DNA of 64,000 nucleotides from Campylobacter curvus (GTDB taxonomy: Bacteria > Campylobacterota > Campylobacteria > Campylobacterales > Campylobacteraceae): positions 1,178,001-1,242,000 of the forward strand of contig NZ_CP053826.1 of assembly GCF_013372125.1 (NCBI RefSeq), given 5' to 3'. Each line of letters starts with the position of its first letter. Position 1 is the first letter of the stretch. This document shows, piece after piece, positions 33,302-57,860 of the stretch. The notes below the pieces were generated by a model that ran no database searches, was not told the DNA's origin, and saw only the letters and a program-made list of their open reading frames with translations. The position numbers and the translations under genes were made by a program.

Positions 33302-34612
33302 CTAACTTGCTCCTTTGCGCGCCAAAACGACCTTAAATGTTTTGATAATGATGACGATGTCGTTCCAAATACTCCAATTTTTCATATACCACGCATCCAT
33401 CTGCGCTCTGGTTTCAAAATCAACATCGCTCCTACCGCTGACCTGCCAGATGCCGGTGATGCCCGGACGCACGGCAAGGATGAGATCTGCGTATTTACCC
33501 ATATCCTTTTTCTCATACTGAGCGCAGGGTCTAGGGCCTACGATGCTCATCTCACCTTTTAACACGTTGATAAGCTGGGGCAACTCATCAAGAGAAGTCT
33601 TGCGGATAAAATTTCCAAATTTTGTGATCCTTGGGTCGTGCTCATATTTGTGATATTTTTCAAAATACTGGATCTCTTGCGGATTTGCCTTTAGATACTC
33701 TTGCAAAATTTGCGAGCTGTTTTCACGCATAGATCTAAATTTCAAGCATCCAAAAAGCCTGCCGTTTCGTCCCATTCTTTCGTGCGAGAAAAATATTTTT
33801 GCATTTGGCTCTTTTATCTTTATCATAGCCATTATTACTAAAAATATCGGCACTAAAATAGGAAGCGCAAGGACGATAAGCACGATGTCAAGGCATCTTT
33901 TCATTACCATACGCGACCTGCTTTTTAAAGAATTTTGGATAGCAAAAATATTTGTCCTAGAATTAAAAAAACCATAAATATGGGCTTTTGTGAAATCATA
34001 GGTTTGCAACATGGGCGCAAATAAAATTTCTTTATTCGCAATTATATTTTGCTCAATCAGCTCATTTAAAATTTCGGGTTTTAATTTCTCATTGGTTATA
34101 AAAAGAGATTCGTAACCTCCACCCGTCTCTTTCACATATCCAAGATATCGATTTGTAAAAATTTCAAGCTCAAAGTCCGTATTTTCGCCGACAACTTTTG
34201 CTCTTTTTTGCCAAATTCCTACTGCAAAAAGCTGTCTTTTTAGTATAAATTTCGATATCGGCAACAAAAACATCATAAAAATAAAGCTCAAAATAAAAAC
34301 CATTCTTGAATATTCATAATTTATCTTTATCAAAGCCAAGATCGCAAGGCTCAAAAATAGCCCCAAAAAGCAGCTCCTGACTATAATGTAGCTCTCATGC
34401 CAAAAATCATATCTTCTAGTATAAACCCCTTGAAAAACAAATAAAAAGATCATGATCGCTTGCACCAAAAAAAGACCAATATACCTGCTGGCATCGTGAA
34501 AAGCTCCACCACCATAGATAAAATTTTTAATCAAAACGGAAAGAGCAATACAAAGCGAGATAACAAAGATGTCACAAATCAGCAAAATCAAAAAAGATAG
34601 ATATTTTTTCAT
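33302..34612 (-). CDS. Undecaprenyl-phosphate sugar-1-phosphate transferase (WbaP/WcaJ family)
   Basis: This enzyme starts glycan repeat-unit assembly by moving a hexose-1-phosphate from a nucleotide sugar to undecaprenyl phosphate. The 436-aa protein has four N-terminal helices (about residues 5-130), a nucleotide-binding-like middle, and a C-terminal catalytic domain. The catalytic domain contains KRCLDIVLIVLALPILVPIF (re-entrant helix), KFRSMRENS, TSLDELPQLINVLKGEMSIVGPRP and RPGITGIWQVSGRSD. The sugar (galactose, glucose or another hexose) is not fixed by these motifs. It is the last gene of the long glycan operon and overlaps manC by 4 bp. Confidence 0.93.
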   Translation of the reverse strand: MKKYLSFLILLICDIFVISLCIALSVLIKNFIYGGGAFHDASRYIGLFLVQAIMIFLFVFQGVYTRRYDFWHESYIIVRSCFLGLFLSLAILALIKINYEYSRMVFILSFIFMMFLLPISKFILKRQLFAVGIWQKRAKVVGENTDFELEIFTNRYLGYVKETGGGYESLFITNEKLKPEILNELIEQNIIANKEILFAPMLQTYDFTKAHIYGFFNSRTNIFAIQNSLKSRSRMVMKRCLDIVLIVLALPILVPIFLVIMAMIKIKEPNAKIFFSHERMGRNGRLFGCLKFRSMRENSSQILQEYLKANPQEIQYFEKYHKYEHDPRITKFGNFIRKTSLDELPQLINVLKGEMSIVGPRPCAQYEKKDMGKYADLILAVRPGITGIWQVSGRSDVDFETRAQMDAWYMKNWSIWNDIVIIIKTFKVVLARKGAS

Positions 34613-35982
34613 GATTTATCATACCTTCTGAAATCATCTTCGAGCCTTACTATATCGTCTTCACCGGTATATTTACCTACCTGCGCTTCGATCAAAACGA
34701 CCGGAATTTTTCCCTCGTTTGAGAGGCGATGAATTTCGCCCATTTTTATATATGTCGATTCGTTTTCTCTAAGCAAAAACGTATCATCTCCTATCCTGAC
34801 CGTAGCAGTTCCACAAACCACGATCCAGTGCTCGTTTCTATGAAAATGCTTTTGTAGCGACAGCCTTTTGCCGGGCTTTACCACGATACGTTTTATTTTG
34901 TATCCGTCCGCATTTTCTAAAACCGTATAACTTCCCCAAGGTCTATGCGTAGTAAGATGAGTGCTAACAAGCTCGCTACCCTCCAGTTTTTTGACGACTT
35001 GTTTTATCTTTTGACCGGAACCTTTTTTGCAAATCAGCAAGGCATCTTTCGTGTCAATTATGATGCATCCTTCCATATCTACCGTAGCTATTTTTCTATC
35101 GCTTCCGTATATCAGGTTATTTGACGAATCCACGCAGATATGGTTTAAATTTGTCGTATTGCCGAATTTATCTTTCGGCAGCTCTTCATATAGGCTATCA
35201 AAGCTTCCTAGGTCGCTCCAGCCCATATCGCAATGCACCATCTTGACGTTTTTTGACTTTTCCATTACGGCATAGTCAATGCTATCTTCCGGGATATTTG
35301 CCATATCTTCAAATTTTATTTTTATGACGTCCTCTTTTTTAGCATTCTCAAACGCCTTTAAAGACGCATCGTAAATTTGCGGCGCATGCGCTTTAAGCTC
35401 GTTCAAAAACACTCCCGCTTTAAACATAAACATACCGCTGTTCCAATAATACCCGCCGTCAGCTAAATACTCTTTCGCCTTTTGCTCGCTTGGTTTTTCG
35501 TGAAAGGATATGACATCGTCCGCGCTGCTTTGTATGTAGCCAAAGCCGGTATTGAGGGATGTCGGCTTTATACCAAAAACTACGATATGTCCTTGTGCGG
35601 CAAAATTTTCCGCTTTTTTTACGGCTTCGTTGTAGGCTTTGGCGTTTTTTATCAGATGATCGGACGGGGTGATGAAAACGATCTCGTCTCGATCTGTGCC
35701 GAGGCACGCCAAAGCGATCGCGGGCGCGGTGTTTCTAGCGACAGGCTCCAAAAGATACCTTGTGCCGCTTGCGCCTATCTCTTCAAGCTGGTCTAGCGAC
35801 AAAAAATACTGCTCGGCATTTGAAACGACAAGAATGCTCTCGCATAGCTTTAAATTTCGCTCGTAAGTTAGCTGAAACAACGACTTATCGTCAAATAATT
35901 TTATAAACTGCTTTGGCATGAGAGTCCTACTGATAGGCCAAAGCCTGGTACCGCTTCCGCCACATAGGATAATATTTGTCAT
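34609..35982 (-). CDS. manC: Mannose-1-phosphate guanylyltransferase/mannose-6-phosphate isomerase
   Basis: The bifunctional enzyme makes GDP-mannose. The 457-aa protein has the nucleotidyltransferase motif CGGSGTRLWPISRTLMPKQF (residues 7-26), a FITPSDHLI metal-binding motif and a C-terminal cupin isomerase domain (RPWGSYTVLE, KPGKRLSLQKHFHRNEHWIV). Together with manB at the other end of the operon it supplies GDP-mannose, presumably for the adjacent WbaZ-like mannosyltransferase. It overlaps both neighbours by 4 bp. Confidence 0.95.
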   Translation of the reverse strand: MTNIILCGGSGTRLWPISRTLMPKQFIKLFDDKSLFQLTYERNLKLCESILVVSNAEQYFLSLDQLEEIGASGTRYLLEPVARNTAPAIALACLGTDRDEIVFITPSDHLIKNAKAYNEAVKKAENFAAQGHIVVFGIKPTSLNTGFGYIQSSADDVISFHEKPSEQKAKEYLADGGYYWNSGMFMFKAGVFLNELKAHAPQIYDASLKAFENAKKEDVIKIKFEDMANIPEDSIDYAVMEKSKNVKMVHCDMGWSDLGSFDSLYEELPKDKFGNTTNLNHICVDSSNNLIYGSDRKIATVDMEGCIIIDTKDALLICKKGSGQKIKQVVKKLEGSELVSTHLTTHRPWGSYTVLENADGYKIKRIVVKPGKRLSLQKHFHRNEHWIVVCGTATVRIGDDTFLLRENESTYIKMGEIHRLSNEGKIPVVLIEAQVGKYTGEDDIVRLEDDFRRYDKS

Positions 35983-37103
35983 ACGCTTAGCCTTTCTTTA
36001 AAATTTTTATATTTTTCCTCTACGAATTCTTTTATCTCTCTCTCAAATCTCTCTTTTGAAAATTTTAGCGCATGTCGCCTTATCTTTGAGGGTTCAAAAA
36101 TTTCTATATTTTTTTCGAATTTATCCACCGCATCAAGTAAATTCGGTAAATTTTGCTCACTAAAATGCACTCCCGTCACCATATCCGCGATCGTTTCTTT
36201 CGCGCCGCCTTTGCCTAAGCAAATGACCGGCGTGCCGCACGCCTGAGCCTCTACCGGCGTAATACCGAAGTCCTCCTCGGCGGCAAACACGAATGCCTTT
36301 GCTCTTTGCATCGTTTCTTGCATAACATCATCATTTTGGTAGCCCAGAATTTCGATATTTTTCGCGGCCTTTGACCTTACCTTTGCCATATCGGGACCGT
36401 CACCTATGACGACTAGGCGTTTGCCGCTCTTGCTAAACGCCTCCACGATGAGGTCGATCTTTTTATACGGCACCATCCTTGAAGCCGTGAGGTAAAAATC
36501 ATCTTTTCGCTCTTTTAGCTCAAATTTAGCCGTATCGACTGGCGGGTAGATGACTGCGCTATCCTTGCCATAGATCCTTTTTATCCGCCTTGCTACGTAG
36601 CGGCTGTTTGCTATATAGTGATCGACTCTGTTCGCGCAGCTCGCGTCCCAGATGCGAATTTTATGCAAAAAATATTTCGCCAAAAGCCCTTTTAAACCGT
36701 GCTCTAACCCGCTTTCTTTTAGGTATTGATGGTACAGATCCCACGCATATCGTATCGGCGTATGCACGTATGAGATGTGAAGTTGATTTGCATTTGTGAG
36801 CACTCCTTTTGCCACGGCGTGCGAGCTGGAAAGCACAAGATCGAATTCGCTCAAATCAAATCGCTCGATCGCAAAAGGAAATAGAGGCAGATAGTTTCGG
36901 TATTTGATTTTGGCAAACGGTAAATTTTGAATGAAGCTAGTATGCGCCCTTTTGCCTTTTAAGACAGCGCATCTATCCTTCTCGTCCAAAAAATCGATTA
37001 GGCTAAAAATTTCAAAATCATCCCAGATATTCGTAAAACTCTCTACGCATTTTTCGGCTCCGGCATATACGCTAAACCAGTCGTGGATCAAGGCTTTTTT
37101 CAT
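35979..37103 (-). CDS. GT4-family glycosyltransferase, WbaZ-like (mannosyltransferase?)
   Basis: The 374-aa GT-B-fold enzyme begins MKKALIHDWFSVYAGAEK, like WbaZ and related mannosyltransferases. It carries the retaining-GT4 motif EEDFGITPVEAQACGTPVI (E-x7-E, about residues 272-290). SYVHTPIRYAWDLYHQYLKE is also typical of that group. Its base composition is like that of the core genome; the next gene upstream (37100) is the first of the A+T-rich block. GDP-mannose as donor is inferred from the neighbouring manC. Confidence 0.88.
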   Translation of the reverse strand: MKKALIHDWFSVYAGAEKCVESFTNIWDDFEIFSLIDFLDEKDRCAVLKGKRAHTSFIQNLPFAKIKYRNYLPLFPFAIERFDLSEFDLVLSSSHAVAKGVLTNANQLHISYVHTPIRYAWDLYHQYLKESGLEHGLKGLLAKYFLHKIRIWDASCANRVDHYIANSRYVARRIKRIYGKDSAVIYPPVDTAKFELKERKDDFYLTASRMVPYKKIDLIVEAFSKSGKRLVVIGDGPDMAKVRSKAAKNIEILGYQNDDVMQETMQRAKAFVFAAEEDFGITPVEAQACGTPVICLGKGGAKETIADMVTGVHFSEQNLPNLLDAVDKFEKNIEIFEPSKIRRHALKFSKERFEREIKEFVEEKYKNFKERLSV

Positions 37104-38188
37104 TTTGCTTCCATCTCTTTAAAAATTTTTATTATTTTTTCTGCGGACTTTTGCCAGCTAAATCTTTTTATATTCTCAAAGCCTTTTTGCCTAAGTTCAT
37201 TTTGCATTTTTTCATCGCTCATTAAATTTTCTATATTTTTAGCAATATCATCAACATTATAAGGATCAAAATAAACTACACTATCTACACATACTTCAGG
37301 CAGGCTTGCAGCATTGGAGCACAGCACTGGACAACCGCATGCCTGAGCTTCTAGTGGTGGTAGTCCAAAACCCTCATAAAAAGACGGGAATACAAAGATT
37401 TTAGCTAGATTATAAATAAAAGCAATATCTTCATCATCAACAAAACCCGTAAAATAAACCTTTTTTACCAAATTTTGATCTTTCAATATCTCATCAATAC
37501 CTCCATCTTGTGTTAGAAAGCCATCTCTTTTGCCCACTATCACAAGATTCTCGTCTATATTTTTTAAGGCCAAGAGTAAATTTTTTATATTTTTATTTGG
37601 CTTTACATTTCCAACGAATAAGATAAAATCTTGTGGCAAATTGTATTTTTTAAAAATATAATTTAAATTTTGTCTTTCTTTAATAACTTTAAATTTATTA
37701 ATATCAATTGCATTATAAACAATATATATTTGCTTACAAATTTTAGTATATTCTTCTATTTCTTTTGATGCAAAATTAGATACACTTAAAATTCTATCAC
37801 TTTTTTTTGTGGCCGCTTTTATCATAAACCTAGCATATATCTGTTTTGGTAGTGATAAAGTATCAATAAAAGCTAAATGAAAAACATCATGTATCGTTAC
37901 AACTCTTTTTTTAGCCCTTATTGGTAGGACTGGAATATTGTAGTGAGGCGACCAGAAAATATCACATTTTGGCACTTTTAAAAATAGCTCTAACTGCTCT
38001 TTTATCGAATATACTTTCGCGCCACATTCTATGATTTTGACCTTTTTAGCCCATCCGTATTTTTCTATCTCGTTTTTATTTCCAAGAAGTAAAATTTCAA
38101 ACTCATCAACTAAAAAAGGTATTATATTTTTGATATATGTTCCGATACCAGAAAAGTTATGCATACGAAAATCTACAACAATCTTCAT
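37100..38188 (-). CDS. GT4-family glycosyltransferase
   Basis: The 362-aa protein starts MKIVVDFRMHNFSGIGTYIK, with the glycine-rich N-terminal loop of GT4 enzymes. It has the donor-binding motif FPSFYEGFGLPPLEAQACGC (E-x7-E, about residues 266-285). It is likely to add one sugar of the repeat unit on the cytoplasmic face of the membrane. Donor and acceptor are unknown. From this gene to 54.1 kb the DNA becomes much richer in A+T than the surrounding genes. Confidence 0.88.
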   Translation of the reverse strand: MKIVVDFRMHNFSGIGTYIKNIIPFLVDEFEILLLGNKNEIEKYGWAKKVKIIECGAKVYSIKEQLELFLKVPKCDIFWSPHYNIPVLPIRAKKRVVTIHDVFHLAFIDTLSLPKQIYARFMIKAATKKSDRILSVSNFASKEIEEYTKICKQIYIVYNAIDINKFKVIKERQNLNYIFKKYNLPQDFILFVGNVKPNKNIKNLLLALKNIDENLVIVGKRDGFLTQDGGIDEILKDQNLVKKVYFTGFVDDEDIAFIYNLAKIFVFPSFYEGFGLPPLEAQACGCPVLCSNAASLPEVCVDSVVYFDPYNVDDIAKNIENLMSDEKMQNELRQKGFENIKRFSWQKSAEKIIKIFKEMEAK

Positions 38189-38189
38189 T

Positions 38190-39314
38190 TTATTCCTTTA
38201 TTATCTGCTTTATTTTACTAGTCCAGCCGTTTGTTTTTGCAAATTCAAGATAAATTTGTCTATCTTGAACGCTTATAGCTTTTTGTAAAAAAGAGGCAAA
38301 TTTATTATAATTTGAAGCAAGAAAAGCTGGACTATTTATATGCTCTAGCTCCTGCCACTTTACAGATACAACAGGCAGTCCAGCCGCCATATACTCATAT
38401 AGTTTCAATGGACTGATGGCATCTATCAGCTTCATATCGGTTCTAAAAGGGATAATGCCAACCGATGAATATCTCAAAAAATTTGGCACTAATGCGTTAT
38501 CTACTTTGCCATAAAATGTGATATTTTCCATATCTTTTAGCTTGCTACAATTTTTAGGCTCATATCTTACATCGCCTATTATCAAAAAATGTATATCTTT
38601 TAGCTTACTGGCTAAAAATTCAAGTAGCTCAAAGTCAAACCATCTCTCGATAGCTCCGACATAAACTGCAACTGGCACTTTTATAGAGTTAAAAAAATCA
38701 GGCTTTTCAAAATCACCTTGAAATTTATAAAAATCAACTCCGTTTGGAACATATAACGAGTTACCGTTTAATTTTTTTATGTATTCTTGTAAAGTAGATG
38801 AAGTGTAGATAACCTTATTTGCCAGCTTTATCAGCTCATTTTCTGCCTTTAATGCAGCCTTTGAGACGCCAAAGCCATCAAGCCTATCTGTTACCCTCAC
38901 TATCAGTTTTTTATATTTTATGAGATTAACTAATGGTAAAAAAGCAAAGTTATCTATCACCAAAATATCAACATCTAAAAAAGAGTATTTTTTCAAGATA
39001 TTTTTTAAATTTGGAATAGTAAAAAAAATCCAAATTTTTATAATAAAATAAAATGCAAGTGGTAGCTTTTTAATAGGTGGTAATATAGTATAAGGCGTAT
39101 ATACAAAATAGTTTTTAAATGCCTTAAATACGCCTTTCTTAGCCTGTTTAAATCTAATTTTATTTACGCTTTTTTCATGAAATGGCGAAATAGGAGGCGA
39201 TATAAAAAATACACTATTTCCATCTTTAGCAAGCAGCTCACTATAATAATTGCACCCAACTTTTAAGTGAGTTCCATAATACGAATTTCCACACCAAAGT
39301 ATTTTTTTAGACAT
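38190..39314 (-). CDS. GT4-like glycosyltransferase
   Basis: The 374-aa protein shows GT-B features: an N-terminal ILWCGNSYYGTHLKVGCNYY, a central VAVYVGAIERWFDFELLEFL and the C-terminal SPLKLYEYMAAGLPVVS, which is the conserved donor site (K-x-x-EYMA-x-G-x-P) of many GT4 enzymes. No specific donor can be assigned. It overlaps the acyltransferase gene by 8 bp, supporting one transcription unit. Confidence 0.82.
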   Translation of the reverse strand: MSKKILWCGNSYYGTHLKVGCNYYSELLAKDGNSVFFISPPISPFHEKSVNKIRFKQAKKGVFKAFKNYFVYTPYTILPPIKKLPLAFYFIIKIWIFFTIPNLKNILKKYSFLDVDILVIDNFAFLPLVNLIKYKKLIVRVTDRLDGFGVSKAALKAENELIKLANKVIYTSSTLQEYIKKLNGNSLYVPNGVDFYKFQGDFEKPDFFNSIKVPVAVYVGAIERWFDFELLEFLASKLKDIHFLIIGDVRYEPKNCSKLKDMENITFYGKVDNALVPNFLRYSSVGIIPFRTDMKLIDAISPLKLYEYMAAGLPVVSVKWQELEHINSPAFLASNYNKFASFLQKAISVQDRQIYLEFAKTNGWTSKIKQIIKE

Positions 39315-40341
39315 TTTTATGCCTTATATTATATAAACTATTTGTTTTTAGTCCTAAAATCGGTTTTTCTACGACAAACCAACTAATAACGCCACACAAA
39401 AGTGATAACAACATGACCATAAAGGCGTATTTTTGCTCTTTTGTATATCCAAGCTCGACAAATATATTTATAAAATACATATGATAAATATATGTTCCGT
39501 AAGTAAAGTCATTATTTTTAAAAATTTTATTTAATCCACCAAAACTATAGGCGAAACTAAAAACTAAAAAAGAAAATATAATACAATTAATCATTATATC
39601 CATAGCAATGCTCGGAAAATAGTAATTGAAAATTTTGAATATGCAAAAAATAAGTAAATAGATATAAAAATTATTATATATATATATATGCAAAAAGCTA
39701 AAATATCTATAAAAATAAAAACCTAGTAAAAAAATAAATAAATAAGGCAAAAGAGAGACATTTATGAGCTTATTTATAAAAATATTGTGATCACTTAAAC
39801 GATTATATACAAAGAATATTAAAGATATAACAAAAAGGATAAAAACGATACTTTTACTTTTTTTAAATATCCAAAATATTACAGGCAAACTAGCATAAAA
39901 GAACAGTTCAATCGATATTGTCCAAAGTGGAGCATTTATCTCACCAGTACCAAATGCCTCACTTGCTTTGAGATTAAAAAACTGCAAACAAGTAAGCTGA
40001 GTACATAGCCACTTTAAAAATTCATAGTCAAATTTAACAGGATAAAAATAGTTTAACAAAAATATGCCCATTAATAAATTCACATATAAAGCCGGAAATA
40101 TCCTTAAAAATCTATTTTTAAAATAGATAAAAATATCCTTATTTCTATCGTAAGAATAACTGATCAAAAACCCACTAATCAAGAAAAATATAGCTACTCC
40201 GTAAAAATTACTAAAAAATTCAGTAATAGCATAAAATTCCGTATTTTCTACTTTTAAAAAATATGCCGTATGCCCAAACATTATCTGACATGCAGCAAAT
40301 AAACGTAAAAAATCAAAATTATTATTTTTAATATCTATCAT
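39307..40341 (-). CDS. Acyltransferase family 3 membrane protein (OafA-like)
   Basis: These integral membrane enzymes attach acetyl or other acyl groups to surface sugars. The 344-aa protein has about ten helices and the N-terminal signature NNFDFLRLFAACQIMFGHTA, with the expected Arg and His. I chose the ATG at 40339-40341 because MIDIKNNNFDFLRL is the typical N-terminus. A frame-open ATG seven codons upstream lies inside the end of the FemAB/deacetylase gene. (TA)7 at 39675-39688 lies inside the gene. The sequence is extremely A+T-rich. Confidence 0.87.
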   Translation of the reverse strand: MIDIKNNNFDFLRLFAACQIMFGHTAYFLKVENTEFYAITEFFSNFYGVAIFFLISGFLISYSYDRNKDIFIYFKNRFLRIFPALYVNLLMGIFLLNYFYPVKFDYEFLKWLCTQLTCLQFFNLKASEAFGTGEINAPLWTISIELFFYASLPVIFWIFKKSKSIVFILFVISLIFFVYNRLSDHNIFINKLINVSLLPYLFIFLLGFYFYRYFSFLHIYIYNNFYIYLLIFCIFKIFNYYFPSIAMDIMINCIIFSFLVFSFAYSFGGLNKIFKNNDFTYGTYIYHMYFINIFVELGYTKEQKYAFMVMLLSLLCGVISWFVVEKPILGLKTNSLYNIRHKNV

Positions 40342-40345
40342 AAAC

Positions 40346-42283
40346 TCAATGTTCCATATCATATAAAGTTTTAAAATTGTATCGCTTAATTATTTTATCT
40401 AGGCATTTTATAGATTCCAAAGAAATAGATTTAGGGTGTGATATAAAAATAATATTTCTACTTCTACTTTTATTTATTGCAATATTTATTAAAAAACTAG
40501 ACATATTATCTATGCTTAATGGCCTTCTGCGACTTCCCAACTTGGCAAATACGGACTTTTTATCCATATTTATACCTTTTCCGTCTCCATATATTTTAGA
40601 ATTAGTCAGCTTTAAAAGTATTTTATTAATTATTTTAAAAAACATACTGGCACAAAATGTACCAATTGGCATTTCTATAAATTTACCATTTTTATCTTCA
40701 ATCAAAACATCATCAGTAAATCTATATGCCTCAATGTTTTTAAGCTTTGTAAAATCAAAATAGTGTATATTGTTATTAGATTTAATACCCTGCATAACAG
40801 ATGTATCAACTAAAATTTTGTGTTGCAACAAGGCTTTTTTTAATTTATCAAATGGTTGAATACACCATCCACCAGCTCTATAAGAATGCAGCCTATACTC
40901 GTCATCTACCTCTTTTATAATATCGTAAAGAATTCTTACTGATTTATTTATTATATTTTGAACCTTTATTTCAGTATATGATTGAATTTTATAATGTTTA
41001 TAGGTTGGAAATACCCATTTTTTAGAGCCTTCCTGATAAATTGCATCATACCAATGTGGGTGTATATGTAGCTCTACTCTATGTCCCGTCCTAACCATAT
41101 CTTGTATTTGTTTCTTTATAAGGTTATATTCTAATTTAAGATTTAGATCTAAAATTCTTTCAATATAAATTGTATCAATGTAAAAGGTAGCTTTAATTCC
41201 ACTTTTATTTAATGAATCAAGCAAAATACTAGTTGGCTTTAAAATAGAGTTTTCTAGCGTTCCGCTATCATCTCCAAAGAATAGCTCATAATCAAATGTC
41301 AGAAGAATTGTCTTAGTTTTTATCTCTTGATCTATAATGTCGCCAATATATTTGTTGCCATTTAAAAAGGCATAAGAGTATTTTAAATATTCAAACAACT
41401 TATATTTTAGTGGTTTTATAGGATATTTCCAAAGATAGCCAACTTTCATTTTTCCACCAAATCTTGACTTAAACCTCTGGATACCTTCAAGTTTGCCTCC
41501 TTTTATGGGATTTATTCTAGCACCAACGAAATCATAAATCTTAATGCCCTTAGATTTCATATCTTTTATAATTTGCCAATGTAGTAAATTTAAAGAGCCG
41601 CTATATGGATGAGATATGCTACCACCATATATATAATAAGCACAAGAACAATCATAATAAACAATAGCACAGCCTTGATATATCCCGTTTTTTTCTGCTA
41701 CATAAATTTTAATATTATTCTTTAATGCATTAAGCTCCTTATATAAAACTGTTTTTTGAGGAGACATCATATTTTGTCTAAGCATTGTGTCTTTTATTAA
41801 AGAAACGGCTATTTCTTTAAAATCTAAGCCCTCCTTTATAAAAACTTCATCTTTTATGGCTTTTTTTATAGCATTACGATGTTTTGTATGTATATTTGAA
41901 AAAATAGTTTGCTCACTTTGGTCTAATCGTATTTGATATGAACCAAACCGCGTGTATAAACAACCATCTGGATACACTCCGAAAACGACACTGGATGGAG
42001 GTTGTGCTATAAAATCAACATATTTCATTTGACTTTTTACTATGCCCACTACATCATTTAAAAAATTCTTTTCCTCTATAATCGTTAATGTTTCGTCTTT
42101 ATATATTGTCTGATATGGTAGTACGACATAAGAAAAGATTAGTTTTTTATTTATATAAAATGGCAATATAAAATTTTTATCAACAAACCAACCAAATTTG
42201 GTTGATCTGGATGACAAGAATTCCTTTTTAGCAAATATTGGCAATTCAATTTCTGTATCTAAATCATTAATTATTTTTATCAT
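40346..42283 (-). CDS. Fusion of FemAB-like GNAT acyltransferase and polysaccharide deacetylase
   Basis: The 645-aa protein joins two domains that are normally separate. Residues about 60-300 resemble FemAB/lipid II:glycine glycyltransferase or PEP-CTERM GNAT-like proteins (SEQTIFSNIHTKHRNAIKKA, LNLLHWQIIKDMKSKGIKIY, FKSRFGG). Residues about 325-640 form a NodB-type deacetylase: TFDYELFFGDD (329-339, metal-binding Asp) and ELHIHPHW (404-411, metal-binding His pair), with a late DTSVMQ segment. A plausible job is removing an N-acetyl from a glycan sugar and adding another acyl or aminoacyl group. Substrate unknown. Confidence 0.82.
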   Translation of the reverse strand: MIKIINDLDTEIELPIFAKKEFLSSRSTKFGWFVDKNFILPFYINKKLIFSYVVLPYQTIYKDETLTIIEEKNFLNDVVGIVKSQMKYVDFIAQPPSSVVFGVYPDGCLYTRFGSYQIRLDQSEQTIFSNIHTKHRNAIKKAIKDEVFIKEGLDFKEIAVSLIKDTMLRQNMMSPQKTVLYKELNALKNNIKIYVAEKNGIYQGCAIVYYDCSCAYYIYGGSISHPYSGSLNLLHWQIIKDMKSKGIKIYDFVGARINPIKGGKLEGIQRFKSRFGGKMKVGYLWKYPIKPLKYKLFEYLKYSYAFLNGNKYIGDIIDQEIKTKTILLTFDYELFFGDDSGTLENSILKPTSILLDSLNKSGIKATFYIDTIYIERILDLNLKLEYNLIKKQIQDMVRTGHRVELHIHPHWYDAIYQEGSKKWVFPTYKHYKIQSYTEIKVQNIINKSVRILYDIIKEVDDEYRLHSYRAGGWCIQPFDKLKKALLQHKILVDTSVMQGIKSNNNIHYFDFTKLKNIEAYRFTDDVLIEDKNGKFIEMPIGTFCASMFFKIINKILLKLTNSKIYGDGKGINMDKKSVFAKLGSRRRPLSIDNMSSFLINIAINKSRSRNIIFISHPKSISLESIKCLDKIIKRYNFKTLYDMEH

Positions 42284-42286
42284 AGC

Positions 42287-46214: not shown

Positions 46215-46217
46215 AAT

Positions 46218-48152: not shown

Positions 48153-48165
48153 TACCAATACTCTC

Positions 48166-48906: not shown

Positions 48907-48915
48907 TTTTATATC

Positions 48916-49986: not shown

Positions 49987-51055
49987 AAATTTTATTCACC
50001 CTTACAGCTTCATATGGTGGTCTTGGCATCTCATCATCAACACCGCACTTTACATGTAAAAAATTTAGTCCATATTTTTGTGATAATTCAAGCATAGCTT
50101 GACTAAAATTTTTAACCGACGAAACAACCTCTTGATGCACATTAAAACCGCATGCTTTTGCTATCAAAGTATAATCAATATGTTTTTGATATGTATTTTG
50201 CCCACCTGTTGATTTATTTTGTTCGTTATCAAATAAAATATAAGTTAAATCAATCTCTTTTGCATATCTTCCAGTAGTACTTAGCCCACCCATATGCATA
50301 ACAAATTCAGCATCTCCCCCACATACAATAGCCTTTTTACCTGCTTTTGCAACACCAAGCCCGATACTTAATGCACCACCCATATTTCCTACCATATAAA
50401 AATTTTTAGTATCTTTCATTATATTATACATCTCTCTGGCAGTATTCCCAGTAGTTCCTATAAAAATCATATCCGAATGCCCAAACATTTCATTTAGTAC
50501 TATCAAAAATTGACTTCTAGGGGCATAGTTTAGGCTTAATCTATATTCTTCATCTAATAAAATTTTAGTAAATGTATCCTTTTTTATTATACATATAGTT
50601 TGTGTGTTATTGCAAAATTCTATTTGCGAAATAGCACTATCAATATCATCTTGATCTAACACTACATAATCATATCCATACGCATTTATTAGATCTGGAA
50701 GTTTTTTGGCTAAATGTTGATGCTGTATCTCACTGTCACCCTCTTTATATGTCCTCCAACTAGTCAATATAGGAAAAGCAATATTATATGGCTTTAAAAG
50801 GCTAGTTATGCAGCTCCCCATGTTTGTTAAACCACTTGATTGGATTATAACAATAGGCTTTTTACCAGATATTTTAAGCCCAGCAGCTACAGAGCAAGCC
50901 ACTGCTTCACTAGCGCATGGGAGGTACTCTATTTTTGGATTATTTATAGCTTCGTTTATTGGATATTTTGCAAAGCTACACGGCACAACACAGACGTGCG
51001 TATAATCTTTTAATATTAAAGATTTTATAAAATTCTTAGTATCTAATGCCATCAT
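49979..51055 (-). CDS. Phosphonopyruvate decarboxylase
   Basis: This TPP-dependent enzyme converts phosphonopyruvate to phosphonoacetaldehyde and drives the unfavourable PEP mutase step. The 358-aa single polypeptide has the N-terminal pyrimidine-binding region ([37 protein letters not shown], with the key Glu). The TPP-binding C-terminal region reads [20 protein letters not shown] and [20 protein letters not shown], ending in DNEQN. A closely similar family is sulfopyruvate decarboxylase, but the upstream PEP mutase settles the assignment. It overlaps both neighbours by a few bases. Confidence 0.92.
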
Positions 51056-52344
51056 CTAGTACCTGGTATAAGATCTAATATCTCTTTTATAGACAACAGA
51101 TCTTTTTCAGTCTCTAAACTTCTATCATTATCAAGGATAGATTTTGCAACATTTTTCATGCCTGGATATGCAGCACGTAGCATATGATTTGCATAAATAA
51201 CTATATTTACACCGGCCTTGCTCAGCTGCGTAGCGGTTATTTGGTTAAAGGATGTTGGCACTACAACTATCGGGATAGAGTTATTATGCTCCCTTAAAAT
51301 TTTACAAAACTGCAATATCTCATCAGGTTCTTTTTTTCTTGAATGTATCATAATGCCGTCTGCACCAGCCTTTATATAAGCCTTTGCCCTATTGACCGCA
51401 TCATCCATACCCTTATCCAAGATTAAGCTTTCTATCCTTGCTATAATCATAAACTCATCAGTTATCTTTGCTCTTTTGCCCATTTGTATTTTATCTGAGA
51501 AATTTTCAATGCTGTCTTGCGACTGAACCACATCATTTCCAAAAAGAGAATTTTTCTTTAATCCTATCTTGTCTTCAATTATCACAGCACTAACACCCAG
51601 TCTTTCTAATGTCCTGACCGTATAAACAAAATGCTCTGCTATACCACCAGTATCTGCATCATAGATCATAGGCTTTGTGGTAACCTCAAAAATTTCATTT
51701 AATGTATTTGTTCTGCTTGTTATATCAACAGCTTCTATATCTGGCTTACCTTTTGATGTAGAGTCTGTTAAAGAGCTACTCCACATCCCATCATAATATA
51801 CACCATTATCACCAACTATATTTTCTACTATCAACCCACTTAAAGCACTATGTGCTTCCATTATCCTAACCACCGGCCTAGCATCTATAAGCCTTCTTAA
51901 TGCTTTTCGCCTAATATCTGGGGTTGTGCCAATCTCTTTTAAAGCTTTATTCAAAAGTGTAGATGATATGCCATCGGTATATTCTGGCTCTATAAGCACA
52001 CCTCCCCATTTCGAGATAGTTTCGATAACTTGTTCCCTGGTTTTAGACTGCACTCCATTTTTCCAGTCATTTCCATGGACTACAAAATCTGGCTTAATCT
52101 TTTCTAAATTTGCCCTGTAATCAAGCGTCTCTTGCGCAATTACCTCCTTAACGCCTTTTATATTTTCTACGACTGATTTTCTTTGCTCAAAAGTCATATA
52201 AGGAAGTCTTTTATAACTAGCTATAGCCTGATCTGTCAGCAGCCCAACTATCACATCTCCGTATCCTGATGCTATTTTTAATATATTTATATGACCAGGA
52301 TGTAGTAAATCTGCACTCATTCCTACATAAACTTTTTTATTCAT
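51052..52344 (-). CDS. Cytidylyltransferase-phosphoenolpyruvate mutase fusion
   Basis: PEP mutase makes the C-P bond (PEP to phosphonopyruvate). The 430-aa protein has two domains. Residues 1-135 are a HxGH nucleotidyltransferase: HPGH at 15-18 and the DGISSTLL motif at 124-131, as in TagD-type cytidylyltransferases. Residues 150-430 are PEP mutase: DADTGG (229-234, metal site) and the diagnostic [10 protein letters not shown] (257-266). The fusion suggests that the phosphonate end product is activated as a CMP conjugate, as reported for nucleotidyl activation in other bacterial phosphonate pathways. Which phosphonate is activated is not known. Confidence 0.93.
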
Positions 52345-54143
52345 TACTTTCTCCTTGCGATAATCACGCTATATCTATTCATCATAGACCTAATACCACC
52401 CCTAGAACAGAAGGCATATGTTTTATACACTGTAAAGTCGTGCTTGGCAAGCATTTGTTTCCACCTATCGATCGTATACCACTTCTCTATAAATGGACTA
52501 TCAAACGAATACATCCACTTTCCTCTAAATTCCCAAATAGACTTCAAAAAGCCAATCACAGATATAGGATTTCGATCGCATATTATAAGCATTCCATTTT
52601 TTTCAACTAGATTATTTTTGATATTATCTATTGCAACATCTATATATTTGACATGTTGTAAAACTTCTATGCAGTATATAAGATCAAATTTTATATTGCT
52701 ATTGATAGTATATGTATCTCCAATAAAGATATTTTTATCATTATAGTAGTACGGGTCTATACCGACAATATTTTTATTTTCAAATTTACTATTAAATATA
52801 TTTATATACTTTCCTTTACCACAGCCAAGGTCTAGTATATTGTGACTATCCTTTATGTATTTGCTTAAAATTTTAATATAATTTTGTGCAGTATAGGTAA
52901 GCTTTGTATCTACAACATCATTATTAAATTTAAAACATTCGCCTATCCATAGATTGCTGTCTTCTATTAGTGAAAATTTATATTTATTGCTCTGCAAAAG
53001 AGCATCTATAAAAAATTTAACACTCCAATTTACTGCACTAAATGGAGCATAAACTCCCCAAAATGGCACAGAACCAGGTAAAGATCCCATTAAATCATTG
53101 CCTTCTTTAAACTGTTTTGATTTAATATAATAAAGCGTTTTCCTAGCACATAACAAATACTCGTCATCTTTGGTTAGTTCATATAGTTTAAATGATAAAT
53201 TTGCCCATTGCGCCAACCCAGTAATGCATCTCTCATTATTTACAGATTCGAATTTATCATTATATTGAGACGATAGTAAAAGTTCTTTGTTTATATTTAT
53301 TTCTTTTAATACATTAGTATTTTTCAGTAAAGAGTCTAATATATCGGCTCTTTGCGTATAAGTATAGTAATCAAACAAGCCCTCTAATACGTATATCATA
53401 GTATGTAATACATTTTCTTCATCTGCTTGAAATTTTAAATTATCAAAAAAGCCATTTTCTTTTTGACGAGATAAAACCCATGATATATTTTTATCTGCAC
53501 ATTTTTTAAATTCATCATTTTTAAATACACATCCTGCCTTGTATAATATAGATGCCACTCTCGAATAATAAGAATGCGGAATTTTATTAAAGCCATATGC
53601 AGTCCAACTCCCATCAATATCTTGCACAGAGCATAACCATTCGCAAGCCTTATACGAAGCTATTTTAAATTTTTCCTTACTATCCTTATCTATTTTTTCA
53701 TTTTCATATAACGCTATCAGCCCATACAAAACTTGACCGGTATCAAAAACTAGCTCTATGTCATTATCTATATCAGTAAATGCGCCATTATCTTTTTGAA
53801 CGCCAAGTAACCATATACCAGCCTTATAAGCAGATTCATAATATCTTTCATCTTTTGTTTTTTCATATACTTCAAGCATGGTAGGAATAATATAGCCGGT
53901 GGTCTCTATATAGCTTTTATCCCAACCACTTTTATAAAGATAAAATCCCCGAGAATATCCATCATCGCCCCCAGTCTCTTGAGCCTTTAATAGCCAATTT
54001 GCCGCCAACAGTATATGTTTATTATTTTCATATATATCTTCATTTCTAATGTATTTAAAAAATAGCAATAAACTACTAAAATTTTTAAAAACCGATTGGA
54101 GCAAAAATTTAATTTTTCTTAGTCTTATTTTTATATTTTTCAT
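52344..54143 (-). CDS. Fusion of alpha/alpha-toroid (prenyltransferase/cyclase-like) domain and SAM methyltransferase
   Basis: The 599-aa protein carries repeated helical units with QxxDGSW-like motifs in residues 45-390 ([53 protein letters not shown]), typical of alpha/alpha-toroids such as squalene-cyclase-like or glycoside-processing folds. Residues about 405-599 form a class I methyltransferase: DLGCGKGKY (438-446), GIDP (461-464), [16 protein letters not shown] methyltransferase in this position could cap a glycan end or O-methylate the phosphonate; the toroid might bind the chain. Both are guesses. One base overlaps the PEP mutase gene. Confidence 0.8.
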
Positions 54144-55348
54144 ACGTTAATAAGTCCAGCAAAGTCAATTACATATCGATCTTTTATTGAGGCATAAATT
54201 TCTTTAAATTCCTTATGCGCGACTAAAAACACGACTATATCAGCCTGTACTACGGCGTCTTTAAAATTTACGATTTCCAGTTCTTTGTGCGTTTTGATAT
54301 TTGGCTCGACCGCCAGCACATCAAAGCCCGCACTTGATAGTTCCTTCGCAATAAAAAGTGCGGGTGACTCACGTAAATCATCGATATTTGGTTTAAATGC
54401 AAGTCCCATACAAGCGATTTTCGCCTTTTTGCGATTTTTATTTTCAAATTCTAGTGCGGCATTTTTTATCTTTTCTATCGCCCATTTTGTTTTGTAATTA
54501 TTTACTTCGCGGCTAGTTTTTATGAGTCTCGCCTCGTTCTTTGCCGCATGGACGATAAACCACGGATCGACTGCGATGCAGTGCCCGCCCACACCACATC
54601 CCGGGCTTAAAATATTTACGCGCGGATGCCTATTGGCGAGCCTGATTAACTCCCAAACATCAATATTAAATTTATCGCATATCATGCTAAGCTCGTTTGC
54701 AAACGCGATATTTACGTCTCTAAACGAATTTTCGACCAGCTTTGACATCTCGGCTGTTCTGGCGTCCGTTTGCAGCACCTCGCCATTTACGAAAGTTTTA
54801 TAAAACTCGGATGTTTTTTTTGTCGCTCCGTCACTAAGCCCGCCCACGATCCTATCGTTATTTACGAGCTCTTTCATGATCTTACCGGGTAGCACGCGCT
54901 CCGGACAATGCGCGAAATAAACCCCGCTCGTATCCGTGCCGCACTCCTCTACCCTTTTTTTGACGAGCTCGGTCGTCCCCACGGGCGAAGTCGATTCTAA
55001 AATGACGATATTTCCGCTCTTTACAAAAGGTGCTATGCTTTTTGCCGCCGCTTCAACATAGTCTAAATTCGGCTCATAGTCATTTTTAAAAGGCGTAGGC
55101 ACGGCGATGATGAAGATGTCTGCAAATTTTGGCTTCGTGTCCGCTTTTAGCCTGCCGCTTGTGACGGCAGCCTTTACAAAGAGATCAAGCTCGGGCTCGA
55201 CGATGTGAATTCTGCCGCCGTTTATCGTCTCTACGACCTCGCTTGAAACATCGACGCCATGCACATCATAACCCTTACTCGCCAAAAGTGCAGCCGTCGG
55301 AAGCCCGATATATCCAAGCCCGATAATGCAAATTTTTCTATTCATCAC
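54140..55348 (-). CDS. wecC: UDP-N-acetyl-D-mannosamine dehydrogenase
   Basis: WecC oxidises UDP-ManNAc to UDP-ManNAcA with two NAD+. The 402-aa protein has the N-terminal NAD motif ICIIGLGYIGLPTAALLASKG and the catalytic cysteine segment SPGCGVGGHCIAVDPWFI (Cys near 260). A C-terminal sugar-binding domain includes GLAFKPNIDDLRESPA. The dehydrogenase could also act on UDP-Glc-type substrates, but the adjacent wecB supports ManNAc. Base composition is normal, marking the edge of the A+T-rich block. It overlaps both neighbours by 4 bp. Confidence 0.94.
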   Translation of the reverse strand: MMNRKICIIGLGYIGLPTAALLASKGYDVHGVDVSSEVVETINGGRIHIVEPELDLFVKAAVTSGRLKADTKPKFADIFIIAVPTPFKNDYEPNLDYVEAAAKSIAPFVKSGNIVILESTSPVGTTELVKKRVEECGTDTSGVYFAHCPERVLPGKIMKELVNNDRIVGGLSDGATKKTSEFYKTFVNGEVLQTDARTAEMSKLVENSFRDVNIAFANELSMICDKFNIDVWELIRLANRHPRVNILSPGCGVGGHCIAVDPWFIVHAAKNEARLIKTSREVNNYKTKWAIEKIKNAALEFENKNRKKAKIACMGLAFKPNIDDLRESPALFIAKELSSAGFDVLAVEPNIKTHKELEIVNFKDAVVQADIVVFLVAHKEFKEIYASIKDRYVIDFAGLINV

Positions 55349-56484
55349 AAATTTCCTTTTAAAAATTCTACTATCCGCTCGGACGCCTTGCCGTCGCCGT
55401 AGGGGTTTTGCGAGACGGACATCTTGCGGTATTCGTTTTCGTCGTCCAGTAACTGCCTAGCCTCGCTTGTTATCTTTTCAAAATTCGTTCCCACGAGCTT
55501 TACCACACCAGCTTCGAAGGCTTCCGGTCGCTCGGTCGTCTCTCTCATCACCAGCACCGGCTTGCCTAGGCTCGGGGCTTCTTCTTGGATGCCGCCGCTA
55601 TCGGTGATGATAAATTTAGCCCTGCTCATCAGATATAAAAAGCTTTCGTATTCCAGCGGCTTTATGAGATGGATGTTCGGGATGTTTGATAAAATTTCAT
55701 TTACCGGCTTTTGGACGTTTGGATTTAGATGCACGGGATAGACGATGTCGATGTTCGGGTAGTTTTTGGCGATCGCTTTTAGCGCTTTGCAGATATTTAA
55801 AAGCCCTTCGCCGAAATTTTCCCTCCTGTGCCCGGTAACCAATATAAATTCCCGACTGCCATCAAATTTATACTGCAAATTTATATTTTTTTCTATTTTA
55901 TTTCTCACTCGCTCGTCGTTCTTTATCCGTTCGAGTGTCAAAAATAGCGCGTCAATGACGGTGTTGCCGGTCACGATGATATTTTTTTCGCTTTTACCCT
56001 CTGTGAGTAAATTTTGCCTTGCCTTTTGCGTCGGGGCGAAGTGAAAATTCGCTAGCACGCCGACTATTTGCCTATTCGCCTCCTCCGGATAGGGAGAGTA
56101 AATATCATGCGTGCGTAGTCCCGCCTCGACGTGTCCTACTTTTATCTTCGCATAAAATGCCGCGAGCGCAGCGACTGCGCTTGTCGATGTGTCGCCATGC
56201 ACGAGCACGATGTCGGGCTGATAGCGACTAAAAACGTCTCTAAGCCCCAGTATCACGCGAGAAGTGATGTCATAAAGATCTTGCCCCGGCTGCATCACGT
56301 TTAGATCGAAGTCGGGGCTTATATCAAAAAGCTCTAAAATTTGATCTAGCATCTGTCTGTGCTGAGCGGTGATACAAATTTTTATATCAAAAGCGTCCGA
56401 ATTTTTCTCAAATTTTTTGATAAGCGGCGCCATTTTTATGGCTTCGGGACGAGTCCCGAAGATAAACATAACTTTTTTGGGCAT
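55345..56484 (-). CDS. wecB: UDP-N-acetylglucosamine 2-epimerase (non-hydrolysing)
   Basis: WecB interconverts UDP-GlcNAc and UDP-ManNAc. The 379-aa protein begins KKVMFIFGTRPEAIKMAPLI, the family's signature, and contains HVEAGLRTHDIYSPYPEE (catalytic His and Glu region), TGHRRENFGEG and ITDSGGIQEEAPSLGKPVLV. Length is typical. It feeds wecC, overlapping it by 4 bp, and follows manB by five bases. Confidence 0.96.
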   Translation of the reverse strand: MPKKVMFIFGTRPEAIKMAPLIKKFEKNSDAFDIKICITAQHRQMLDQILELFDISPDFDLNVMQPGQDLYDITSRVILGLRDVFSRYQPDIVLVHGDTSTSAVAALAAFYAKIKVGHVEAGLRTHDIYSPYPEEANRQIVGVLANFHFAPTQKARQNLLTEGKSEKNIIVTGNTVIDALFLTLERIKNDERVRNKIEKNINLQYKFDGSREFILVTGHRRENFGEGLLNICKALKAIAKNYPNIDIVYPVHLNPNVQKPVNEILSNIPNIHLIKPLEYESFLYLMSRAKFIITDSGGIQEEAPSLGKPVLVMRETTERPEAFEAGVVKLVGTNFEKITSEARQLLDDENEYRKMSVSQNPYGDGKASERIVEFLKGNL

Positions 56485-56489
56485 TTAGA

Positions 56490-57860
56490 CTATCCGATTA
56501 AATTTTTTATAATATTATTAATATTTTTTTGAATTAGAACTAAAAATTCCTCACTCTTCGCCTCAAACCTAGTCACGATCACTGGTGTCGTATTTGAGGC
56601 TCGCACGAGTGCCCAGCCATCTTCAAACTGTATCCTGATGCCGTCTATCTCGATAATATTTAAAATTTTAGGTAGCTCGCATTCGCCATTTTTTATGCGA
56701 TTTTTTAGCTCTTCTACTATCTTAAATTTATTTTCTTCACTAACTTTTATTTTTATCTCATCGGTACTAAAAACCGGAGGCATTTTATCAAGCTCACCGT
56801 CTAGATTAAAGCCTTTATGCACGAGCTCCAGTACACGCATCATAGCATAAAGCGCATCATCAAAGCCAAAATATCGCTCCTTAAAAAATATATGTCCGCT
56901 CACTTCAGCGGCGAGATCGACATTTAGCTCTTTCATCATCTTTTTTATATTGCTATGCCCAGTTTTACCCATGAAAACCTCGCCGATCTTAGCGATCTCG
57001 TCATACATATTTTGTGAGCATTTGACCTCACCCAGTACTCGCGGATTTTTCATATTTAGCGCATACAAGTATGCAAGCTCGTCACCTTTTATGTTTCGCT
57101 TAGGGGTGATCACAGCGATCCTATCGCCGTCTCCGTCAAAGCCAAAACCAAGACTGCACTCTTTTTTTTCTATGCATTCAAAAATATCTTTTAAATTTTC
57201 TTTTTCACTAGGATCTGGGTGGTGATTTGGGAAATTCCCGTCAGGCTCGGAGTATAAAATTTTAGCGTTTAGTCCAAGTGACTTTATGATAGGCACGACG
57301 CTAACGCCCATAGCGCCATTTGCACAGTCGATGATAAAAGGCTGCTTAAAATTTCTTAGTTCGCTAAATTCTTTGACAAAAAATTGTACGTAAGGTGTTA
57401 AAATATCAAATTTTTCACAACTAAAATCATCTGAAATTTTTACCTCGCTAGCGATTATTTCATTCACATCAAATTTTAGTTTCTGCAGATCTTGGCCAAA
57501 AAAACTATCCTTTTTTATCGTTATTTTAAAGCCATTGTATTCTTTTGGATTATGAGAGCCAGTTATCATTATGTTTGCATCGAAATAATCGGCATAAACG
57601 CTAAAATATCCGACCGGTGTCGGCAGTAGACCTATATCGTAAATCTTTAGCCCGCCAGCTTTATTTAACCCGCTTAGTAAAAATTTAAAAAGATCGCCGG
57701 CACTTAGTCTGGCATCATGGCCGATACTTAGTGTCTTTACGCCGCGCTCTTTCATTTTTTCACCAAGCGCTAAACCGATCGCCTTCACGCTCGTTTCGTT
57801 CAGATCTTTTTCATAAATTCCACGTATATCATATTCTCTAAAAATTTCATCATATTTCAT
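56490..57860 (-). CDS. manB: Phosphomannomutase/phosphoglucomutase
   Basis: ManB converts mannose-6-phosphate to mannose-1-phosphate (and often the glucose equivalents), providing substrate for ManC. The 456-aa protein has the alpha-D-phosphohexomutase layout. MKYDEIFREYDIRGIYEKDL is the N-terminus, ITGSHNPKEYNGFKIT holds the phosphoserine loop, FGFDGDGDRIAVI the metal-binding loop and EVSGHIFFKERYFGFDDA the sugar-binding loop. It is the first gene of the 24.5-kb glycan operon; the promoter should lie at 57865-57940. Confidence 0.95.
   Translation of the reverse strand: MKYDEIFREYDIRGIYEKDLNETSVKAIGLALGEKMKERGVKTLSIGHDARLSAGDLFKFLLSGLNKAGGLKIYDIGLLPTPVGYFSVYADYFDANIMITGSHNPKEYNGFKITIKKDSFFGQDLQKLKFDVNEIIASEVKISDDFSCEKFDILTPYVQFFVKEFSELRNFKQPFIIDCANGAMGVSVVPIIKSLGLNAKILYSEPDGNFPNHHPDPSEKENLKDIFECIEKKECSLGFGFDGDGDRIAVITPKRNIKGDELAYLYALNMKNPRVLGEVKCSQNMYDEIAKIGEVFMGKTGHSNIKKMMKELNVDLAAEVSGHIFFKERYFGFDDALYAMMRVLELVHKGFNLDGELDKMPPVFSTDEIKIKVSEENKFKIVEELKNRIKNGECELPKILNIIEIDGIRIQFEDGWALVRASNTTPVIVTRFEAKSEEFLVLIQKNINNIIKNLIG

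Follow-up and report, generated by a model that had tools for sequence, protein, structure and literature searches.

A predicted phosphonate module within a glycan operon

The DNA analysed here, referred to as the window, is a 64,000-nucleotide stretch of the Campylobacter curvus genome (one contig of 1,974,918 bases, NZ_CP053826.1; the window covers positions 1,178,001 to 1,242,000). Listing of open reading frames (ORFs) and family searches showed that it contains a minus-strand operon of 19 co-directional ORFs, running from 57860 to 33302 (Table 1). With the listed starts, the operon junctions range from -17 to +9 nt; the distance ahead of the AsnB-type gene becomes 13 nt if that gene starts at GTG 48152, which stands immediately ahead of a Cys codon, and not at the listed TTG 48158. 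The gene groEL lies 118 nt upstream of manB. An earlier sequence-only reading had placed the genes for a phosphoenolpyruvate (PEP) mutase (pepM), a phosphonopyruvate decarboxylase (ppd), an Fe alcohol dehydrogenase (Fe-ADH) and a CDP-alcohol phosphotransferase one directly after another in a one-direction glycan operon. ORF coordinates and family searches confirmed this arrangement: pepM and ppd overlap by 4 nt, ppd and the Fe-ADH gene by 8 nt, and a 9-nt gap precedes the phosphotransferase gene. The manB, manC, wecB and wecC genes, several glycosyltransferases and a LicD domain, all named in that reading, were found again by family searches. Five features go beyond it: a cytidylyltransferase fused to the PEP mutase, an AsnB-type gene, a fusion of an alpha/alpha-toroid with a methyltransferase (toroid-MT), a FemAB/deacetylase fusion, and a tract of nine G residues (G9) in the CDP-alcohol phosphotransferase gene.

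The PEP mutase passed model TIGR02320 (406 bits, cut-off 319.6) and carries the EDKxxxxxNS motif at residues 257-266. Two other identities were considered and rejected, phosphonopyruvate hydrolase (TIGR02321, 157 bits against a cut-off of 374.4) and methylisocitrate lyase, likewise on model scores. The N-terminal cytidylyltransferase domain of the mutase (PF01467) shows HPGH at residue 15 and ISST at residue 126. Among solved structures the closest to this domain was 5x3d chain A, with 194 bits against 69 for the runner-up and 88 of 132 residues identical (67%); the entry is labelled PEP phosphomutase by its depositors and we take it to be the cytidylyltransferase domain of Fom1. According to PMC6697681, the cytidylyltransferase fused to the mutase in Fom1 makes CMP-HEP (HEP, 2-hydroxyethylphosphonate), and PF01467 is carried by 23.6% of PEP mutases. 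The fused domain of the window is thus predicted to form CMP-HEP from CTP and HEP, and activation of the phosphonate with CTP, already suggested by the sequence-only reading, gains firmer support as a prediction from this fusion. The segments of the Fe-ADH that bear Asp and His residues begin at positions 193, 261 and 274, and presumably supply its metal ligands. The window therefore holds the gene set of the HEP branch, PepM, Ppd and Fe-ADH with no aminoethylphosphonate (AEP) transaminase, the names Ppd and Fe-ADH resting on best models that score below their cut-offs. In the whole genome no AEP transaminase exceeded the cut-off (best score 42 bits against 360.8). Synthesis of HEP by the module, as proposed earlier, is thereby supported as a prediction.

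On the basis of the genes, motifs, domain fusion, gene order, cassette conservation and tract observed, we consider it probable that the operon makes a surface glycan linked to a lipid, that this glycan contains ManNAc/ManNAcA and perhaps mannose, and that it is decorated with HEP in a phase-variable manner. In the predicted pathway, PEP mutase would form phosphonopyruvate, Ppd would convert it to phosphonoacetaldehyde, Fe-ADH would reduce the aldehyde to HEP, and the fused cytidylyltransferase would turn HEP into CMP-HEP. The HEP-phosphonoyl group would then be placed onto the glycan by a phosphotransferase, for which the CDP-alcohol phosphotransferase is the likeliest candidate and the LicD-like protein a possible one; Wzx would flip the decorated glycan, and the G9 tract would make the decoration phase-variable. 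A mannose/ManNAcA glycan, the acceptor put forward by the sequence-only reading, is plausible from manBC and wecBC. The PepM-cytidylyltransferase architecture is that of Fom1, which would also fit a cassette for a small, diffusible, fosfomycin-like natural product. Among the 19 operon genes, one of which has no family match, we recognised no radical-SAM methylase, epoxidase, small-molecule exporter or resistance gene; the cassette is flanked by glycan genes, and polymer-tailoring transferases often come next in relatives. A diffusible product is in our judgement very improbable, and the operon is better suited to a surface glycan.

Table 1. Features of the operon, in order of transcription (window coordinates)
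Feature	Coordinates	Strand	Evidence
manB, phosphomannomutase/phosphoglucomutase, first gene	56490..57860	-	Pfam PGM_PMM I-IV; 78% identical in G039, same place beside groEL
wecB, UDP-GlcNAc 2-epimerase	55345..56484	-	TIGR00236 509 bits, cut-off 210
wecC, UDP-ManNAc dehydrogenase (giving ManNAcA)	54140..55348	-	NF008286 565 bits, cut-off 459
alpha/alpha-toroid + SAM methyltransferase fusion (toroid-MT)	52344..54143	-	weak C5-epimerase/cyclase-type toroid matches; Methyltransf_23 56.6 bits
cytidylyltransferase-PEP mutase fusion (Fom1 architecture)	51052..52344	-	CTP_transf_like 53.8 bits, PEP_mutase 188.5 bits
ppd, phosphonopyruvate decarboxylase, divergent subfamily	49979..51055	-	TIGR03297 best model
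Fe-ADH, predicted phosphonoacetaldehyde reductase giving HEP	48916..49986	-	TIGR03405 best model
CDP-alcohol phosphotransferase, proposed HEP transferase	48166..48906	-	PF01066 48.8 bits
G9 tract in CDP-alcohol phosphotransferase gene, predicted on/off switch	48425..48433	-	sole G/C run of at least 7 in window
AsnB-type amidotransferase	46218..48152	-	TIGR01536 352 bits, cut-off 267
LicD-like domain + C-terminal kinase-like domain	44739..46214	-	PF04991 29.6 bits
probable Wzx flippase	43459..44745	-	similarity to same-place protein in relatives
glycosyltransferase group 1	42287..43462	-	family search
FemAB/GNAT-like domain + polysaccharide deacetylase, one protein	40346..42283	-	family search
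membrane acyltransferase (Acyl_transf_3)	39307..40362	-	family search
glycosyltransferase	38190..39314	-	family search
glycosyltransferase group 1	37100..38188	-	family search
glycosyltransferase group 1	35979..37103	-	family search
manC, GDP-mannose pyrophosphorylase/mannose-6-P isomerase	34609..35982	-	TIGR01479 537 bits, cut-off 373
WbaP-like initiating phosphoglycosyl transferase, last gene	33302..34612	-	Bac_transf 222.7 bits; TIGR03022 400.6, cut-off 403 narrowly missed

The protein named a flippase by the sequence-only reading has no Pfam match, and the name relies on 26-31% similarity over 356-436 residues to the same-place protein of five relatives. Against the counterparts in genomes G106 and G384 a 63-residue stretch alone aligned, and the G384 counterpart itself fell narrowly below the Polysacc_synt cut-off (27.9 against 28.2 bits). 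The GC content is 43-46% in manC, wecB, wecC and one glycosyltransferase gene and 24-37% in the other 15 genes, a split that looks like the typical mosaic of surface-glycan loci. GroEL places the genome in Campylobacter, broadly defined: it shares 87% identity with the protein of the named Campylobacter sp. W0018 and 74-75% with its counterparts in Helicobacter, Arcobacter and Campylobacteraceae metagenome-assembled genomes (MAGs), and no match was found in a fifth named MAG. Two STT3 genes are located in the same genome, 0.7-0.8 Mb from the operon. Outside the operon, the window also encodes a PAD_porph family protein (Porphyromonas-type peptidyl-arginine deiminase, 342.6 bits, 27806-28795).

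HEP-type and AEP-type loci among relatives

The likely product was examined in a survey of 89 loci with a PepM fusion, consisting of 80 named loci (the best 80 of at least 577 confirmed relatives), 8 from further relatives and the window itself; genome G074, whose contig is identical to L043, was excluded. Counts of motifs and neighbours use the 78 loci with at least 3 kb of downstream sequence. When the cytidylyltransferase motif was intact (n=69), Fe-ADH was encoded nearby in 66 loci and an AEP transaminase in none. When the motif was lost (n=9), Fe-ADH was found in one locus and an AEP transaminase in seven; G079 has neither. A separate nucleotidyltransferase accompanies the lost motif in four of the five such loci inspected (L031, L110, L117 and L118) and is fused to the transaminase in three; in the fifth, L098, the candidate nucleotidyltransferase resembles, by eye, a sugar-nucleotide enzyme. 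Because intact-motif loci pair with Fe-ADH and not with AEP transaminase, and because the C. curvus genome lacks a transaminase above the cut-off, HEP is the likely product. The state of the motif, intact or lost, is moreover a candidate marker for sorting HEP from AEP clusters in genomes.

AEP is the surface phosphonate that the abstract of PMC6697681 names, and AEP-type clusters are present in two genomes of the same genus, G035 and G036. At the C. curvus locus, Fe-ADH occupies the position that the transaminase holds in AEP-type clusters; with this, the genome-wide search and the absence of AEP transaminase from every intact-motif locus, we rejected AEP as the product and give it hardly any credence. 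The window's Ppd shares 67-68% identity with its counterparts beside PepM in three lost-motif loci (G035, G079 and L118).

A search for the gene set in other Campylobacter genomes, the check proposed with the sequence-only reading, found a full-length PepM fusion in 4 of 47 genomes of the genus. Two of them (G025 and G039) have the Fe-ADH type, and G035 and G036 carry the AEP transaminase. The G039 cassette sits in the same place beside manB and groEL, together with TagF, Wzy and a different CDP-alcohol phosphotransferase. Further away, the pepM-ppd-Fe-ADH order is found in a Candidatus Stackebrandtia locus (L052). PepM-like matches of 26-27% in G061, G067 and G280 were rejected as counterparts, their rows resembling by eye the propionate (methylisocitrate) operon; the CDP-alcohol phosphotransferase gene near each belongs to another kind of row.

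Two loci of the survey had unusual content. In the flavobacterial locus L117 (10833-14314), a second cytidylyltransferase-like domain is joined to what looks, by eye and profile, like an aminotransferase domain; a CDP-alcohol phosphotransferase comes next. The Candidatus Prometheoarchaeum locus L116 (9717-14055) holds an archaeal PepM fusion with an altered ISST motif, an Fe-ADH and a separate nucleotidyltransferase.

Candidate transferases, the cartridge slot and the G9 tract

The gene following Fe-ADH could be read in 54 of the 68 named Fe-ADH loci; the other 14 have no same-strand ORF longer than 300 nt starting within 600 nt, some of them at contig ends. It matched LicD in 14, the TagF type in 10 and the CDP-alcohol phosphotransferase family in 2 loci, 26 of 54 in total (E at most 0.001). 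As a control we examined the fifth ORF past Fe-ADH, whichever its strand, for the 44 loci where it exists, and none of the three families was among the 25 of 73 families listed for these genes; because that list reaches down to single members, each has at most one member in the control. These counts use Pfam only: an in-house TagF profile drifted to GT-B folds, calling wecB a match, and in-house LicD and kinase profiles were left out of the counts because both ended up with equally large sets, 40 proteins in 34 loci. All three families use CDP-linked donors. In the window, the CDP-alcohol phosphotransferase gene adjoins Fe-ADH and the LicD-like gene lies two genes beyond.

The setting of these transferases was then compared across the phylum by searching toroid-MT alone against 397 Campylobacterota genomes, which yielded eight loci including the window, all of which were read. 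Homologues covering most of its length occur in seven other genomes (L131 in G384, and L146-L151), none of which has a PEP mutase. All eight loci have a nucleotidyltransferase after toroid-MT, with AsnB between the two in G384, and a CDP-alcohol phosphotransferase further on; in all seven relatives toroid-MT, the CDP-alcohol phosphotransferase and a flippase share one row. What differs is the content of the slot. In G103 and G371 it is occupied by an IspD-short-chain reductase fusion. G106 and G135 have a free PF01467-type enzyme there, and G078 and G075 a weak PF01467 enzyme, with a methyltransferase next in G078 (by eye, the gene that follows in G075 is similar). The slot of G384 combines AsnB with a free PF01467 enzyme and kinase-like genes, and that of the window contains the cytidylyltransferase-PepM fusion, Ppd and Fe-ADH. 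The wecB gene directly precedes toroid-MT in five of the seven relatives and is absent beside it in G078 and G075, hence it is no fixed member of the row. A PglB-like gene follows in six of the eight loci; the G371 contig ends before that point, and the window has none. The nearest locus in kind is that of G384, whose CDP-alcohol phosphotransferase is 42-43% identical to the window's enzyme and which also has AsnB. Because slot contents vary between relatives, it looks as though the phosphonate genes had entered a system that in other genomes carries different CDP-activated groups, with the HEP module as one of several exchangeable head-group cartridges.

Some of these rows are of interest in their own right. 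In L131 (6122-13846), a free cytidylyltransferase, an active-looking kinase (HGDFHIDN) and a thymidylate-kinase-like protein lie upstream of the PglB gene, which suggests a CDP-linked group on an N-glycan. In L146 (11306-12652) and L149 (11696-13036), the IspD-short-chain reductase fusion stands between toroid-MT and two CDP-alcohol phosphotransferases; CDP-ribitol-type synthases resemble such fusions.

Which enzyme would attach HEP is doubtful. The CDP-alcohol phosphotransferase, the most likely one, matches PF01066 above its cut-off of 22 bits, with the motif D-x2-DG-x2-AR-x8-G-x3-E-x3-D. Alternatively, the LicD-like protein would attach HEP and the CDP-alcohol phosphotransferase would attach another group or help to build the acceptor, a variant that overlaps with the proposed pathway and that we regard as possible though on the doubtful side. 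In relatives, the gene next to Fe-ADH belongs to LicD more often than to any other family, and the joint occurrence of toroid-MT and the CDP-alcohol phosphotransferase in seven relatives lacking PEP mutase means that HEP-specificity is not required of the latter enzyme. Set against this, the protein's match to PF04991 spans 35 residues (cut-off 22.6 bits), its acidic motif is altered, no other match at E at most 1e-10 was found in the 397 genomes, and it is the CDP-alcohol phosphotransferase gene that adjoins Fe-ADH. The C-terminus of the LicD-like protein is 29% identical to the G384 kinase over 79 residues (E 7e-5), with SGN where that kinase has HGD, so this part may be a dead kinase.

The sequence-only reading had also allowed for a lipid acceptor, a possible alternative. 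The CDP-alcohol phosphotransferase would in that case form a phosphonolipid by transfer from CMP-HEP to a lipid such as diacylglycerol, with the glycan genes as mere neighbours. Such enzymes are classically lipid-making, and the genome has three other PF01066 genes, which makes the window copy an extra one. Phosphonoglycans and phosphonolipids are both named in PMC6697681. Two observations speak for a glycan instead, namely that the corresponding enzymes of the seven PEP mutase-free relatives lie in flippase-bearing glycan rows, in six cases with an oligosaccharyltransferase gene within the region viewed, and that LicD or TagF, both polymer-tailoring families, follow related HEP cassettes in 24 of 54 loci. 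A phosphonolipid is therefore unlikely, and we keep the decorated surface glycan as the preferred reading.

The G9 tract is the single G/C run of at least 7 in the window, where shuffled sequences gave an expectation of 0.01. Other tract lengths (four were tried) would end the protein at residue 164-170 of 246, which suggests that attachment is phase-variable. Genome-wide, 22 matches to the tract pattern corresponded to 10 separate tracts; poly-G tracts of 9-10 near 61728, 314604, 412766 and 1782559 lie at or in genes that by eye resemble those of TonB-dependent receptors. A scan for runs of at least 8 in 27 locus pieces of relatives revealed tracts in four phosphonate loci (G035, G036, Campylobacter sp. 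W0018 and a Helicobacter MAG), each time in a methyltransferase gene; W0018 has a further tract that lies in no called ORF. The same methyltransferase gene has G9 and a whole frame in G035 (L031, 10673-11371) and G8 and a split frame in G036 (L034, 7633-8328). Between these copies identity is 99.4% and there are two gaps; the split may therefore not be due to the tract alone. G025, G039, G096 and the seven toroid-MT relatives showed no tract of at least 8, and the switch is therefore no fixed part of the system.

Tentatively, with rather less than even confidence, we propose that Campylobacterota possess a modular decoration system, in which a conserved row (toroid-MT, CDP-alcohol phosphotransferase, flippase and usually wecB) is combined with swappable cartridges, each with a nucleotidyltransferase that is predicted to form a CDP-activated alcohol, and with poly-G-switched transfer. 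The CMP-HEP cartridge of the window is predicted to replace a phosphate ester by a C-P linkage that resists hydrolysis, and cells of the same clone would occur with and without surface phosphonate.

Weight of the evidence and relation to known systems

Several observations weigh against the proposed HEP-decorated glycan. The rule for an intact motif was defined after the motifs had been inspected, and exceptions exist: L104, G101 and G115 have an intact motif and sufficient DNA with neither Fe-ADH nor AEP transaminase, and L116 has lost the motif yet has Fe-ADH. The raw Fisher p of 6e-8 for the association of motif and enzyme was dropped as proof, since on the mutase-domain tree the pattern reduces to 4 motif changes with 3 supported independent pairs, and the median p after tree correction is 0.5; the pairing of motif and Fe-ADH is strong natural history and weak statistics. 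Ppd and Fe-ADH score below the NCBIfam cut-offs of their best models (200 bits against 312.5 and 362 against 423.7) and are for that reason called divergent relatives outside the curated groups. No Wzy was recognised among the operon genes, the genome's single Wzy_C match being located elsewhere. In the CDP-alcohol phosphotransferase a Glu replaces the usual third Asp of the motif, a variant shared with G384 and L078. The LicD-like protein has DND for the usual DDD; because of this motif and the dead-looking kinase part, two candidate transferases remain. Finally, toroid-MT, AsnB and the CDP-alcohol phosphotransferase are not phosphonate-specific, as they are present in relatives that have no PEP mutase.

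All in all, surface decoration dependent on CMP-HEP is a real and well-supported prediction. Campylobacter is a host-associated genus; if the prediction is true, the surface coat of this Campylobacter would bear a C-P bonded group resistant to common phosphatases that can be switched on and off. The cartridge comparison names a candidate enzyme for the transfer of a CMP-activated phosphonate to a glycan. The cartridge idea and the switching add to the interest of the locus, and the doubtful identity of the transferase lowers it. The tailoring steps that follow C-P bond formation were called enigmatic in a 2019 paper (PMC6697681). No Campylobacter glycan modified with phosphonate was found described in the literature searched, which consisted largely of titles and abstract openings, with subscription papers mostly uncovered. 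In the accessible part of PMC6697681 Campylobacter appears just as Cj1416 and in one reference, and in that of PMC8316502 just in two references, which deal with how Campylobacter degrades phosphonates. The enzyme kinds are individually known; the combination, the host and the cartridge arrangement appear to be new.

Among known systems, Fom1 of the fosfomycin pathway (Streptomyces wedmorensis) shares the N-terminal PF01467 cytidylyltransferase fused to PEP mutase and the HEP branch; unlike that pathway, whose later genes were not recognised among the 19 operon genes, the window has its module in a glycan operon with candidate CDP-donor phosphotransferases. The O-methyl phosphoramidate decoration of the Campylobacter jejuni capsule, which is CTP-activated and has phase-variable transferases, is likewise an unusual phosphorus group on a Campylobacter glycan, but its chemistry is P-N and its enzymes are different, whereas a C-P bond is predicted here. 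Phosphonoglycans of Glycomyces and Stackebrandtia, reportedly described by Yu et al. in 2014, carry phosphonate on a polysaccharide, as is predicted for the window; they belong to another phylum and have other sugars and other transferases, and we know of no phase-variable tract for them. HEP-type phosphonoglycans occur in Actinobacteria, so that this kind of molecule is not itself new. Stackebrandtia nassauensis makes phosphonoglycans according to PMC12723261. Pnt/Lic tailoring, as presented in PMC6697681, resembles the proposed pathway in that a CTP-activated phosphonate is transferred to a surface glycan; it uses the AEP-specific PF12804 enzyme PntC, whereas the window has a PF01467 HEP-type cytidylyltransferase and a CDP-alcohol phosphotransferase. 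The toroid-MT loci of Campylobacterota (L131, L146-L151) differ from the window in having IspD-reductase or free cytidylyltransferase cartridges without PEP mutase and, in six of seven, PglB nearby, and share with it toroid-MT, the CDP-alcohol phosphotransferase and the flippase in one row.

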